8,571 nt of DNA from an uncultured Lachnospiraceae bacterium. Its GTDB lineage: Bacteria > Bacillota_A > Clostridia > Lachnospirales > Lachnospiraceae. This document shows, piece by piece, positions 5,472-8,571 of this stretch. Location of the stretch: assembly GCA_902795835.1 (NCBI GenBank), contig CADBNA010000325.1, positions 1 through 8,571 on the forward strand, written 5' to 3'. Numbering within the stretch: the stretch's first letter is position 1; each line of letters starts with the position of its first letter. Both the position numbers and the translations under genes were made by a program. The notes under the pieces were generated by a model. It searched no databases. It was given only the letters and a program-made list of their open reading frames with translations, and was not told the origin of the DNA.

Positions 5472-5493
5472 GGTCTGAAAATCAAAAGCCAAT

Positions 5494-5565
5494 AGGGCTG
5501 CCGCAGACGGCGGAGCTCATGCCTGACAAAAGGTATGGGGCGCCGGGAGCGGCAGCTCTTTTTTT
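5494..5565 (+). terminator. Intrinsic terminator after secY
   Basis: A5494 plus GGGCTGCCGC (5495-5504) pairs with GCGGCAGCTC (5549-5558) plus T5559. This gives an 11-bp stem with one G-U pair, followed at once by seven Ts (5559-5565). The 44-nt interior can extend the hairpin: CTCATGCC pairs with GGTATGGG around a TGACAAAA loop, and GGCG with CGCC below it. The stem, T-tract and position 23 nt after the secY stop fit a rho-independent terminator ending the spc unit. The interior fold was read by eye. Confidence 0.85.
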
Positions 5566-5571
5566 CTACCC

Positions 5572-5600
5572 TTGACGGAGGGCAGGAGAATGGATAGAAT
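5572..5600 (+). promoter_or_regulatory. Sigma-A type promoter for adk-map-KOW-infA
   Basis: TTGACG at 5572-5577 (five of six consensus bases) and TAGAAT at 5595-5600 (five of six) are separated by exactly 17 bp. The -35 box begins only 6 nt after the T-tract of the secY terminator. Predicted transcription start is about 5607, leaving a leader of about 57 nt before adk. The spacing and position between a terminator and the adk ribosome binding site make this a convincing housekeeping promoter. Confidence 0.85.
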
Positions 5601-5663
5601 GTATATGTTAAACTATGTCTGCTGACAGGAGACACAGAATATATACGGACAAGGAGGCACTGC

Positions 5664-6346: not shown

Positions 6347-7123
6347 ATGGCAGTTACGATAAAGAGTGCCCATGAAATAGAAAAGATGCGGCAGTCGAAC
6401 CGCCTCCTGCAGGAGGTGTTCGCCGGAATGGAAAAGCTGATCGAGCCCGGGATCTCCACCTATGAGATCAACCGGGAGGGTGAGCGCCTGATCCGGTCCC
6501 TTGGCGGAGTACCGAACTTCCTCAATTACAACGGATATCCGGCGTCGATCTGTACATCGGTCAACGAAGAGGTCGTCCACGGCATTCCGAAGAAGGACAG
6601 GATCCTGAAAGAGGGCGATATCATCAGCCTGGATGCGGGCCTGATCTATGACGGCTACCATTCCGACTGTGCCAGGACCTACGCGGTAGGGCAGATCAGC
6701 CCGGAGGCACAGGAGCTGATGCGGGTGACGAAGCAGAGCTTTTTCGAGGGTATGAAATACGCAAGAGCCGGCTGTCATCTGCATGACATTTCTGCGGCGA
6801 TCGGCAACTATGCAGAGGGACTTGGCTACGGTGTGATCCGTGACCTGTGCGGACACGGCATCGGCACACGGATGCACGAGGACCCGCAGATCCCCAACTT
6901 CCCGCAGAAAAGCAGAGGGATCCGTCTGGTGCCCGGCATGACACTGGCCATTGAGCCGATGATCGCCATCGGAAACTGGCGCGTACGCTGGTGCGACGAT
7001 GACTGGACCGTCGTTACTGCCGACGGAAGCCTTGCGGCCCATTACGAGAATACGATCCTGATCACCGAGGGAGACCCCGAGATCCTGACGCTTTCTCCGG
7101 CGGAGGCAGAAGGACTCTTATGA
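6347..7123 (+). CDS. map: Type I methionine aminopeptidase
   Basis: The enzyme removes the initiator methionine from new proteins whose second residue is small. The 258-residue product has the pita-bread fold length for a type I enzyme with no N-terminal extension. The five metal ligands are all present: D96 (SLDAG), D107 (HSDCARTY), H170 (CGHGIG), E203 (AIEPM) and E234 (HYENT). The substrate-contact histidines H78 (EEVVHGIP) and H177 are also present. The start has only a weak AGAAGAG-like ribosome binding sequence near 6335-6341, poorer than its neighbours, so translation may be less efficient or partly dependent on adk. The stop TGA overlaps the ATG of the next gene in ATGA. Confidence 0.97.
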   Translation: MAVTIKSAHEIEKMRQSNRLLQEVFAGMEKLIEPGISTYEINREGERLIRSLGGVPNFLNYNGYPASICTSVNEEVVHGIPKKDRILKEGDIISLDAGLIYDGYHSDCARTYAVGQISPEAQELMRVTKQSFFEGMKYARAGCHLHDISAAIGNYAEGLGYGVIRDLCGHGIGTRMHEDPQIPNFPQKSRGIRLVPGMTLAIEPMIAIGNWRVRWCDDDWTVVTADGSLAAHYENTILITEGDPEILTLSPAEAEGLL

Positions 7124-7422
7124 AGCAGCTGAGATACGGCATGTATGCCAGAAGCCTTGCTGGTCACGACAAGGGCAGGCTGTATATAATAATAGAAGAA
7201 ACGGACGGCGCCGTCAGTCTTTGCGACGGCAGGCTGAGGAAAGTCGATAATCCAAAGAAAAAAAAGAAGAAGCATGTCCTGGTCGAGTACAATGTCTCAC
7301 CGGTCATAGAAGAGCGGATCGAGGCGGGCAGGCCAGTCAGGGATGAGGATATCCGAAAAGCCCTGAAGGAAAAAGAAAAACATAAAGGGCAAGAGGAGGA
7401 GATTATACATGTCCAAGAATGA
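7120..7422 (+). CDS. Small KOW-domain RNA-binding protein (L14e-like)
   Basis: This is a 100-residue protein of the KOW-domain family found between map and infA in many Clostridia; its precise function is not established. The N-terminal half shows the KOW core ([20 protein letters not shown], residues 6-25), then [12 protein letters not shown] basic patch of six lysines follows (K46-K51, in [10 protein letters not shown]). The C-terminal third is charged and probably helical ([14 protein letters not shown]). RNA or ribosome binding is inferred from the KOW fold and location. The ATG overlaps the map stop by four bases, and the 3' end overlaps infA by 14 bases, so all three are likely translated together. 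The lysine codons hold an A8 run containing A_AAA_AAG in the zero frame. Confidence 0.88.
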
Positions 7423-7627
7423 TGTCATTGAAGTAGAGGGTGTCGTGCTCGAGAAGCTGCCGAATGCGATGTTCCGGGTAGAGCTGGAGAACAAGCACGT
7501 GGTGCTGGCGCATATCAGCGGAAAGCTCCGGATGAATTACATCCGTATCCTTCCCGGCGACAAGGTTACACTTGAACTTTCCCCCTACGATCTGGACAAG
7601 GGCAGGATCATCTGGAGAGACAAATAA
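7409..7627 (+). CDS. infA: Translation initiation factor IF-1
   Basis: IF-1 occupies the 30S A site during initiation and assists IF-2 and IF-3. The 72-residue product has the exact family length and OB fold. Landmarks are [20 protein letters not shown], then [20 protein letters not shown], and the end [20 protein letters not shown] with [17 protein letters not shown] at 7394-7399 lies inside the KOW gene, 9 nt before the ATG. It is the last gene of the adk unit. After the stop come an inverted repeat, a promoter and a terminator, so the following rpmJ starts a new transcription unit. Confidence 0.98.
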
Positions 7628-7647
7628 ATAACAGCAGATTCCATAAA

Positions 7648-7669
7648 TTCACAAAAAAAACTTTGTGAA
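7648..7669 (+). repeat. Inverted repeat upstream of the rpmJ promoter
   Basis: TTCACAAA (7648-7655) and TTTGTGAA (7662-7669) form a perfect 8-bp inverted repeat around AAAAAC. It lies 20 nt after the infA stop and 7 nt before the -35 box of the rpmJ promoter. In DNA it could be an operator or an A-rich upstream element; in RNA it could be a stability hairpin at the end of the infA mRNA. The half-sites are in the opposite order to the Rex consensus (TTGTGAA-n4-TTCACAA). Confidence 0.6.
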
Positions 7670-7676
7670 AATTTAC

Positions 7677-7705
7677 TTGCATTTCATAGCGCACGGTGAT
7701 ACAAT
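7677..7705 (+). promoter_or_regulatory. Promoter for rpmJ-rpsM unit, inside a terminator
   Basis: TTGCAT (7677-7682) and TACAAT (7700-7705, five of six) are separated by 17 bp, and TGA directly before the -10 gives an extended -10 element. The -35 box matches only three bases, which the extended -10 can offset. The -10 box lies within the 5' arm and loop of the terminator hairpin at 7688-7733, and the predicted start near 7712 falls at its apex. The resulting leader before rpmJ is about 104 nt. Confidence 0.7.
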
Positions 7706-7733
7706 GCTAGCTGTATCTCTGTGCGCTTTTTTT
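7688..7733 (+). terminator. Intrinsic terminator after infA
   Basis: AGCGCACGG (7688-7696) pairs with TCTGTGCGCT read back from 7727, and GATACA (7698-7703) pairs with TGTATC (7712-7717). The arms are 16 positions long with one T-T mismatch and one G-U pair, and the loop is ATGCTAGC. The 3' arm runs into seven Ts (7727-7733). This is a strong rho-independent terminator for the adk-infA transcript. Confidence 0.85.
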
Positions 7734-7815
7734 CGGACTAACCCACCGAAAAGGGCCAAAATACAGGCGATACGGACACTCGCAGGCTGTTCATTTATGA
7801 AAGGAGGATGCTCAC

Positions 7816-7929
7816 ATGAAGGTAAGATCTTCTGTAAAACCGATCTGTGATAAGTGCAAAGTCATTAAGAGAAAAGGCAGTATCCGCATCATTTGTGAGA
7901 ATCCAAAGCATAAACAGCGCCAGGGATGA
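7816..7929 (+). CDS. rpmJ: 50S ribosomal protein L36, zinc-binding type
   Basis: L36 is the smallest 50S protein. The 37-residue product is [20 protein letters not shown] followed by [17 protein letters not shown]. The zinc ligands C11, C14, C27 and H32 are all present, so this is the zinc-dependent form rather than the ligand-free paralogue. AAGGAGG at 7801-7807 lies 8 nt from the ATG. The gene is the first of a transcription unit started at about 7712 and is followed by an unusually long 277-nt spacer before rpsM. Its stop codon sits inside a short AGGGA-TGA-TCCCT inverted repeat (7922-7934). Confidence 0.97.
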
Positions 7930-8206
7930 TCCCTCAACGATCCCTATTGCAGTTTATGCGAACTAATATTATAAAGTGAGACCTGACTGGCTGCGTCAGG
8001 ATGCCTCCGGCGGATCATACGCAGGAGCGTAAGATCCCTTATAATATTACTTAAAACTCTCATGTACGGCTGCCCTGCCGGATGTGGGAGAAAGGCCGTT
8101 CATCGTCGTGCGGCTGGATGCAGAAAGCATCCCATTTAAGCTAGTATCAAAATTGATCCGACATTCCAGGGACTTGTACGGATCGCAACAGAAGGAGGAA
8201 ATGCAC
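7930..8206 (+). promoter_or_regulatory. Candidate structured 5' leader of rpsM
   Basis: This 277-nt spacer has no supported gene. It can fold extensively. A perfect 11-bp helix, TAATATTATAA (7964-7974) with TTATAATATTA (8039-8049), encloses two hairpins: CCTGAC/GTCAGG (7982-7987, 7995-8000) and GGATC-A-TACGC/GCGTA-A-GATCC (8012-8022, 8027-8037). Downstream are CTCTCATGT-A-CGGC with GCCG-G-ATGTGGGAG (8057-8090), GGCCG/CGGCT (8094-8115), GGATGC/GCATCC (8116-8132) and GATCCGACA/TGT-A-CGGATC (8155-8184). The last ends 7 nt before the rpsM ribosome binding site. Proteobacteria control rpsM translation through S4 binding at this place, so an analogous role is inferred; the ligand is unknown. Confidence 0.65.
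8192..8198 (+). promoter_or_regulatory. rpsM ribosome binding site deciding the start
   Basis: AAGGAGG at 8192-8198 is 2 nt from an in-frame ATG at 8201 and 8 nt from ATG 8207. The second spacing is normal and gives the conserved N terminus [11 protein letters not shown], so 8207 is chosen. GGAGG (8194-8198) is complementary to CCTCC at 8004-8008 in the leader. Confidence 0.85.
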
Positions 8207-8571
8207 ATGGCTCGTATAGCTGGTGTAGATTTACCAAGAGACAAACGAGTAGAGATAGGTCTGACCTATATCTATGGCATTGGAAGAACTTCTTCCAATC
8301 GTATCCTTGCGCAGGCAGGCGTTAACCCGGACACCCGCGTCAGAGATCTGACCGATGAAGAGGTCAAGAAGATCGCGACCGTCATCGATGAGACCCAGAC
8401 CGTAGAAGGTGATCTCCGCCGTGAAACCGCTATGAACATCAAGCGTCTCCAGGAGATCGGCTGCTACCGCGGTATCCGTCATAGAAAAGGACTTCCGGTT
8501 CGCGGCCAGAAGACCAAGACGAACGCGAGAACCCGCAAGGGCCCGAGAAGGACTGTAGCAAACAAGAAGAA
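8207..8571 (+). CDS. rpsM: 30S ribosomal protein S13, 3' end cut by window
   Basis: S13 lies in the 30S head, contacts the P-site tRNA and forms bridges to the 50S. The 121 visible codons are nearly the whole protein (the family is about 120-123 residues). They run from [20 protein letters not shown], through [14 protein letters not shown] with its helix-two-turn-helix, to [20 protein letters not shown] and [17 protein letters not shown]. The basic C-terminal tail is the part that reaches the tRNA. No stop is reached before the edge at 8571. It is preceded by the long structured leader. In relatives rpsK, rpsD, rpoA and rplQ follow, which lie outside this window. Confidence 0.97.

Follow-up and report, generated by a model that had tools for sequence, protein, structure and literature searches.

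A proposed two-fold S4-Clostridia leader upstream of rpsM in Lachnospiraceae

The closest described relative of the RNA considered here is the S4-Clostridia ribosomal-protein leader, published in 2020 by Eckert and Weinberg and held in Rfam as RF03140. In the accessible part of that report, S4 was assigned as the ligand by precedent, the 5´ GAAA was pointed out, and rRNA mimicry was left open (PMC7247131). Within the literature searched, which lay outside supplements and most subscription journals, the leader is treated only in that report and, by name, in the Rfam 14 paper.

Here we analyze the DNA between rpmJ and rpsM in an uncultured Lachnospiraceae bacterium, as part of a stretch of 8,571 nucleotides that we refer to as the window. 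RF03140 is the sole Rfam family at gathering threshold in the whole window, where it is matched over its full length with a score above the cut-off (Table 1) and with the P3 and P4 hairpins following GAAAG (8090-8132); a permissive search of 7600-8571 (E ≤ 5) added only three weak matches, to eukaryotic or snoRNA families. The position of the family upstream of rpsM-rpsK-rpsD-rpoA-rplQ is likewise found, with rpsM in the window and the remainder read in the nearest relative. On these sequence grounds, we regard it as settled that the leader is a member of the published S4-Clostridia family. A preliminary description of this DNA had seen no clear likeness to any known leader, a view that the RF03140 match overturns, and had suggested a different architecture. 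The E. coli and Bacillus S4 leaders indeed have no Rfam match in the window, which supports that suggestion in part, but the family itself was already known.

The rpmJ-rpsM spacer and its relatives

The names infA, rpmJ, rpsM, map, and adk come from NCBIfam matches, and the remaining genes of the cluster are presumably those expected from gene order. From the rpmJ stop at 7929 to the rpsM ATG at 8207, the spacer has the 277 nt initially reported. Most other spacers of the cluster do have about the 11-30 nt given for them at first (11-29 nt), but three are longer, at 78 nt (1978-2055), 192 nt (5472-5663), and 188 nt (7628-7815), and in the ORF table the rpmJ-rpsM spacer is the longest rather than the sole long one. 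Its predicted fold (-90.9 kcal/mol) is more stable than those of shuffled sequences (-76.3 kcal/mol, sd 4.8; z -3.0), with none of 200 shuffles equaling it. The fold contains more than seven helices, as at least seven had been claimed, and the 11-bp helix described between 7964-7974 and 8039-8049 is an exact complement that closes a junction. A hairpin does occupy 8155-8184, but its supposed 9 bp are 6 bp and 3 bp around a bulged A rather than a continuous stem; by eye, this stem is kept with changes in two relatives (L092 and L102, the latter equal to L001) and is missing in some close relatives.

Three other features of the cluster are recorded here as separate observations. A strong hairpin with a T run after it, resembling an intrinsic terminator, lies at 7688-7727 in the infA-rpmJ gap (-23.3 kcal/mol, z -5.6); it was missed by a pattern scan, has a similar element in 26 of 129 relatives by a crude test, and is absent in L001. 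The 192-nt spacer, secY-adk by gene order, is unusually long for the cluster and has no Rfam match at cut-off. A 100-aa frame at 7120-7422, between map and infA and overlapping both, has no NCBIfam match.

Table 1. Features of the rpmJ-rpsM region (window coordinates)
Feature	Positions	Strand	Basis
rpmJ (ribosomal protein L36), upstream of leader	7816..7929	+	ORF table; NCBIfam TIGR01022, 80.8 bits
rpmJ-rpsM spacer (leader region), 277 nt	7930..8206	+	ORF table, fold
P0 5´ strand, pairs with 8039-8049	7964..7974	+	exact complement; swap control in relatives
Hairpin within P0, loop UGGCUGC	7982..8000	+	fold; GCTGCG kept in window and 7 relatives without module A (by eye)
Anti-Shine-Dalgarno CCUCC; in the P1 fold, potential partner of 8194-8198	8004..8008	+	predicted folds
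Second hairpin within P0 (GGAUC/GAUCC stem)	8012..8037	+	fold
Middle strand: P0 3´ strand; 8044-8049 also P1a 5´ strand	8039..8049	+	fold, comparison
P1 5´ strand (P1a 8044-8049, P1b 8051-8055)	8044..8055	+	comparison of relatives
P2 stem-loop (8057-8065/8082-8090; inner 8067-8070/8077-8080)	8057..8090	+	fold, covariation; outside Rfam model
Rfam RF03140 S4-Clostridia leader match	8090..8140	+	41.8 bits, gathering cut-off 37.5; model 1-55 of 55
P3 hairpin (8094-8099/8110-8115)	8094..8115	+	Rfam model, covariation
P4 hairpin (8116-8121/8127-8132)	8116..8132	+	Rfam model, covariation
P1 3´ strand (P1b 8135-8139, P1a 8142-8147, bulged C8141)	8135..8147	+	comparison of relatives
Accessory hairpin 5´ of Shine-Dalgarno	8155..8184	+	fold; no module C model match
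Shine-Dalgarno GGAGG of rpsM	8194..8198	+	sequence
rpsM (ribosomal protein S13), truncated at window end, ATG at 8207	8207..8571	+	NCBIfam TIGR03631, 182.4 bits

Bilifractor porci (L001) has the nearest RpsM protein (96%), and its rpsM is followed by frames read as rpsK, rpsD, rpoA, and the first part of rplQ. In 299 genomes from the family of this bacterium, RF03140 is matched in 74 at E ≤ 1e-3 (55 above the cut-off), and all 70 of the matches examined sit in the rpmJ-rpsM gap, the four weakest (G043, G204, G190, and G153) having been left out. The Rfam scan of relatives covered 40 of 80 RpsM loci and found no family besides RF03140 at cut-off in those 40. The earlier proposal of an alpha-operon ribosomal-protein leader, possibly for S4, is supported by the RF03140 match and by rpsD in the operon of B. 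porci. We infer that S4 is the most likely ligand because of that match, the precedent reported for the family in the part of PMC7247131 available, and, in the nearest relative, an operon that includes rpsD.

The junction helices P1-P4

For comparison of the helices we used 74 distinct sequences, including the window, L007, L014, and L033; the spacers of L001 and L102 are identical and were counted once. The comparison suggests that the leader is larger than its 55-position Rfam model, with P2 and a closing P1 added to form a four-way junction. The compensatory changes expected of a real structure are clear in P1b, P2, P3, and P4, all of which are shown by this alignment-based comparison, and P0 passes a swap control (see below); P1a is weak in a fixed register. 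The six outer pairs of P2, which precedes GAAAG, are canonical in 74, 74, 73, 68, 52, and 66 of the 74 sequences, where the make-up of the columns predicts 74, 63, 46, 40, 26, and 31, and they show up to six pair types. The first pair of P1b, which closes the junction, is T-A in 52, T-G in 16, and A-T in five, including the window, and the third is A-T in 59, G-C in 14, and G-T in one; the outer pair falls under expectation (48 of 74 paired, 53 expected).

Conservation of P1a is mainly at the level of sequence. Its pairs 2, 3, 4, and 6 are at the chance level given by column make-up, pair 1 (G-C in 35, A-T in 16) is paired in 53 sequences with 45 expected and fails in 21 of 74, and pair 5 is paired in 64 with 52 expected; when the two strands are re-paired randomly, the mean hardly drops, from 5.09 to 4.97 of six pairs (sd 0.04). 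We also built a model, R1, from 19 training sequences of one class that excluded the window. R1 locates the window leader at 8036-8153 (41.7 bits) and matches 57 of the 299 genomes, as against 74 for RF03140 (E ≤ 1e-3), 10 of the 57 being new by comparison of the lists. An alignment to R1 took in 79 of 82 source sequences, the 19 training rows included, and was fitted to the structure; with that proviso, 94.7% of its cells are paired, compared with 28-46% when partners are slid, and both-side changes occur in 445 cells, compared with 132 in shuffles. For P1a, this fitted alignment gives 89.1% pairing, and five of the six pairs show both-side changes.

We think it very improbable that the structure is only a processing or stability element with no part in regulation. 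Such an element would agree with the wide variation in accessory parts and in spacer length, whose conservation, anticipated at the outset, did not hold (16 to 577 nt across the 79 of 80 RpsM relatives with a readable spacer); set against it are the strong covariation and the fixed location before rpsM.

Two further observations concern loops and were made by eye. P2 loops are frequently GUCAUU(A/U), as in L097, L098, L106, L109, L113, and L133. Leaders that lack the junction (L009, L017, L163, L165, L167, and L175) have a hairpin whose loop is similar to UUUUAUACCGAG; it resembles J1/P2 of the S4 junction and is perhaps a reduced form.

Two exclusive folds and the Shine-Dalgarno sequence

The 3´ strand of P0 includes nucleotides 8044-8049, which P1a needs, and P0 and P1 are therefore mutually exclusive. 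To score P0 in relatives we used 70 of the 74 sequences, four having too little upstream DNA. The best upstream helix scores 18.2, compared with 13.9 when upstream regions are swapped between relatives (sd 0.36, maximum 14.8 in 40 swaps) and 12.7 when they are shuffled. A P0 of 8-14 bp, scoring at least 16, is present in 45 of the 70, and 25 are without a strong P0; the comparison supports P0 in the majority of relatives, and supports that it excludes P1. One class has AATATAC-AAGGA (AAUAUAC-AAGGA in the RNA) as its P0 5´ strand, a copy of the downstream P1a 3´ strand plus a Shine-Dalgarno-like piece, which would be the decoy in a strand exchange.

The two folds have similar energies. When each is imposed on the window, both come to -92.3 kcal/mol, and across the 45 relatives with a P0 score of at least 16 the median difference is -2.2 kcal/mol (quartiles -4.1 and 0.6), with 30 of 45 within 5 kcal/mol. 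In the 44 of these with GGAGG (L132 was excluded), predicted accessibility of the Shine-Dalgarno sequence is 0.47 in the P0 fold and 0.26 in the P1 fold, and is lower in the latter for 35 of 44. The decrease arises because an anti-Shine-Dalgarno segment freed in the P1 fold pairs with GGAGG: in the class of the window this is CCUCC (8004-8008, pairing with 8194-8198), and in another class it is UCCUC directly 5´ of the middle strand. Shuffling the P0 region alone raises accessibility in the P1 state to 0.45, and 35 of 44 real values lie below their shuffled counterparts (Wilcoxon p 1e-5); kinship is left uncorrected here, as in the other controls. A complement of at least 5 nt to the Shine-Dalgarno sequence is found in 21 of 44 P0 regions, with 5.6 expected, and the mean complementary run there is 4.39, compared with 3.39 in shuffles and 3.93 in the junction region, which is longer. 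The TTAC class behaves in the opposite way, all three members scored gaining accessibility from P0 to P1 (L123 0.27 to 0.91, L126 0.42 to 0.74, and L138 0.49 to 0.69). Exclusive helices are thus combined with a predicted trend in 35 of 44 leaders that is reversed in three TTAC members, and the models support masking of the Shine-Dalgarno sequence by the P1 fold in the majority of classes, though not in every one. P0 of the window constrains CCUCC only loosely, and a pseudoknot between CCUCC and the Shine-Dalgarno sequence, of a kind that nested folding leaves out of account, is conceivable.

We somewhat favor a model in which S4 stabilizes P1 in a two-fold leader and shuts off rpsM translation. 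In this model, the leader would control rpsM and, judging by relatives, rpsK-rpsD-rpoA-rplQ, and the four-way junction P1-P4, only P3 and P4 of which are in the Rfam model, would be the ligand-binding part. In the first fold, 8039-8049 would pair upstream as P0, CCUCC would be kept within the domain formed by P0, and the ribosome-binding site of rpsM would be exposed. In the second, 8044-8049 would pair downstream as P1, closing the junction and opening P0, and the released CCUCC would pair with GGAGG and block rpsM translation. Free S4 exceeding 16S rRNA would bind and stabilize the junction, shifting the leader to the off state, such that excess S4 would lessen translation of its own operon.

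It is also conceivable, though we consider it unlikely, that the same S4-binding junction acts with no anti-Shine-Dalgarno switch, S4 near the start blocking or trapping the initiating ribosome and P0 serving as a folding scaffold. E. coli S4 acts by entrapment, according to the accessible part of PMC10931766, P0 is weak or missing in the 25 leaders noted above, and in the TTAC class the junction occurs with no masking in P1. Yet P0 and P1 have a strand in common, P0 outscores the swapped sequences, Shine-Dalgarno complements are enriched in the P0 region, and shuffling that region frees the Shine-Dalgarno sequence.

Mutually exclusive helices are also a typical feature of attenuators, and the two folds could instead govern early termination before rpsM. 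We regard this as improbable: a pattern scan found no terminator-like site in 7400-8300, though it also missed 7688-7727, and no U run was seen after P1.

Conserved modules in relatives and the question of ligand

Relatives carry two further conserved elements, neither with an Rfam match at cut-off in the 40 loci scanned. In 114 de-duplicated spacers of at least 150 nt, the most frequent 7-mer is GCGGCTG (90, against a mean of 1.8 in shuffles), which outnumbers the Shine-Dalgarno word GGAGGAA (83); the count includes copies inside P3/P4, among them the sole copy of the window. Upstream copies adjoin a hairpin just 5´ of the P0 5´ strand, which we call module A. Only three pairs were returned for it by RNAalifold, because MAFFT misaligned its stems. 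Module A is seen in L009 (2191-2244), L017, and the L151-L190 spacers, whether or not the S4 junction is present, and in one group (L028, L035, L041, L126, L137, and L138) the adjoining hairpin has a CCGTCAA loop by eye.

Module C is a hairpin close to the Shine-Dalgarno sequence with CAUUUCAG in a lopsided internal loop (for example, L125, 681-724, and L151, 513-557). Both-side changes occur in nine of its 11 pairs in 18 sequences, and by eye all 18 show a coordinated exchange of an A.G pair with G.A. Training rows were chosen by word (ATTTCAG for module C, GCGGCTG for module A), and those words are invariant by choice. The module C model, R2, gave 55 matches in 54 of the 299 genomes, of which 14 lie in loci already sampled and 40 more were examined, with G300 left out. 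Among these 40, 39 fall between rpmJ and rpsM, and each of the 39 spacers also has a GCGGCTG that lies outside P3/P4, a word not used in choosing them; the A.G/G.A step holds by eye in 33 of the 34 with CATTTCAGnC, the exception being L188.

Neither module is clearly present in the window, in which R2 finds nothing and GCGGCTG lies in P3/P4. The idea that 8155-8184 is a worn copy of module C is unsupported, with no R2 match in the window, L092, or L102 at E ≤ 1. The GCTGCG of the P0-internal hairpin loop is not kept in seven relatives that have module A (by eye).

Resemblance to 16S rRNA was considered as a lead only. P3/P4 of the window contains GTGCGGCTGGAT, an exact match to the 3´ end of the L191 16S rRNA, but 12-nt matches to 16S also turn up in five of 161 base-shuffled spacers. 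GCGGCTG and its complement CAGCCGC both occur in the L191 16S rRNA, on whose sense strand a random 7-mer has an 8.8% chance of occurring. The likeness is no evidence for mimicry, since it is within chance level.

Taken with P0, these modules could belong to a larger, composite Lachnospiraceae leader working as a strand-exchange switch, in which the strand with the anti-Shine-Dalgarno segment and the junction 5´ strand would swap between an upstream decoy and the P1 strand plus the real Shine-Dalgarno sequence, and in which the GCGGCUG internal loop and the CAUUUCAG hairpin with its A.G/G.A swap may sense a second ligand. We put this forward tentatively, with a little less conviction than the S4-driven model above. 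The modules suggest that, in this major family of gut bacteria, the leader responds to more than a single signal.

The same modules bear on whether the switch might answer to another ligand: S13, S11, rRNA itself, or, in relatives, a factor reading GCGGCUG or CAUUUCAG. We judge this somewhat less likely even than direct blocking by S4. It would accommodate the two modules, and the S4 assignment is by precedent only, going by the portion of PMC7247131 available to us. S4, however, is a product of the operon and has known leaders elsewhere. Among 68 loci readable to rpoA, rpsD lies between rpsM and rpoA in 44 of 44 with spacers of at least 150 nt and in 16 of 24 with shorter ones; the eight lacking rpsD in the operon all have spacers of 17-27 nt, although these are seven Paenibacillus and one Hydrogenibacillus, and the link is confounded by kinship and class. 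The balance of the alpha operon (S13, S11, S4, RNA polymerase alpha, and L17) in Clostridia, which retain rpsD there, would rest on this predicted leader.

Comparison with known systems

The S4-Clostridia leader RF03140 is like the leader of the window in its full-length match, P3, P4, the 5´ GAAA, and its place before rpsM. The Rfam model ends at 55 positions, and P1, P2, P0, and the anti-Shine-Dalgarno segment of the window leader lie outside it. The E. coli alpha-operon S4 leader has in common the operon, the proposed ligand, and rpsM translation as target, and S4-lowered translation of its own operon would match the E. coli outcome with another structure (PMC10931766, in the part available). 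It has no Rfam match in the window at cut-off, nor in 7600-8571 at E ≤ 5, and combines a pseudoknot with entrapment, whereas the window leader has a four-way junction and a proposed strand exchange. The Bacillus subtilis rpsD leader shares S4 as the proposed ligand, as far as the same partial source goes (PMC10931766). It too has no Rfam match in the window, nor in 7600-8571 at E ≤ 5, and it precedes an rpsD outside the alpha operon, whereas rpsD of B. porci is inside.

In translational riboswitches with an anti-Shine-Dalgarno segment, one strand takes part in two alternative helices and the Shine-Dalgarno sequence is masked in one state. The window leader would resemble these switches in having a strand common to two helices and a Shine-Dalgarno sequence predicted to be masked in one of them; unlike theirs, its proposed ligand is a protein, and the comparison is one of working only, not of membership. 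With a more complete structure, a two-state model set out explicitly, and nucleotides specified by position, the proposal lends itself directly to testing by probing and reporter mutants. What was known is the family, by class; what is added is an architecture and a testable switch that are absent from the Rfam model.
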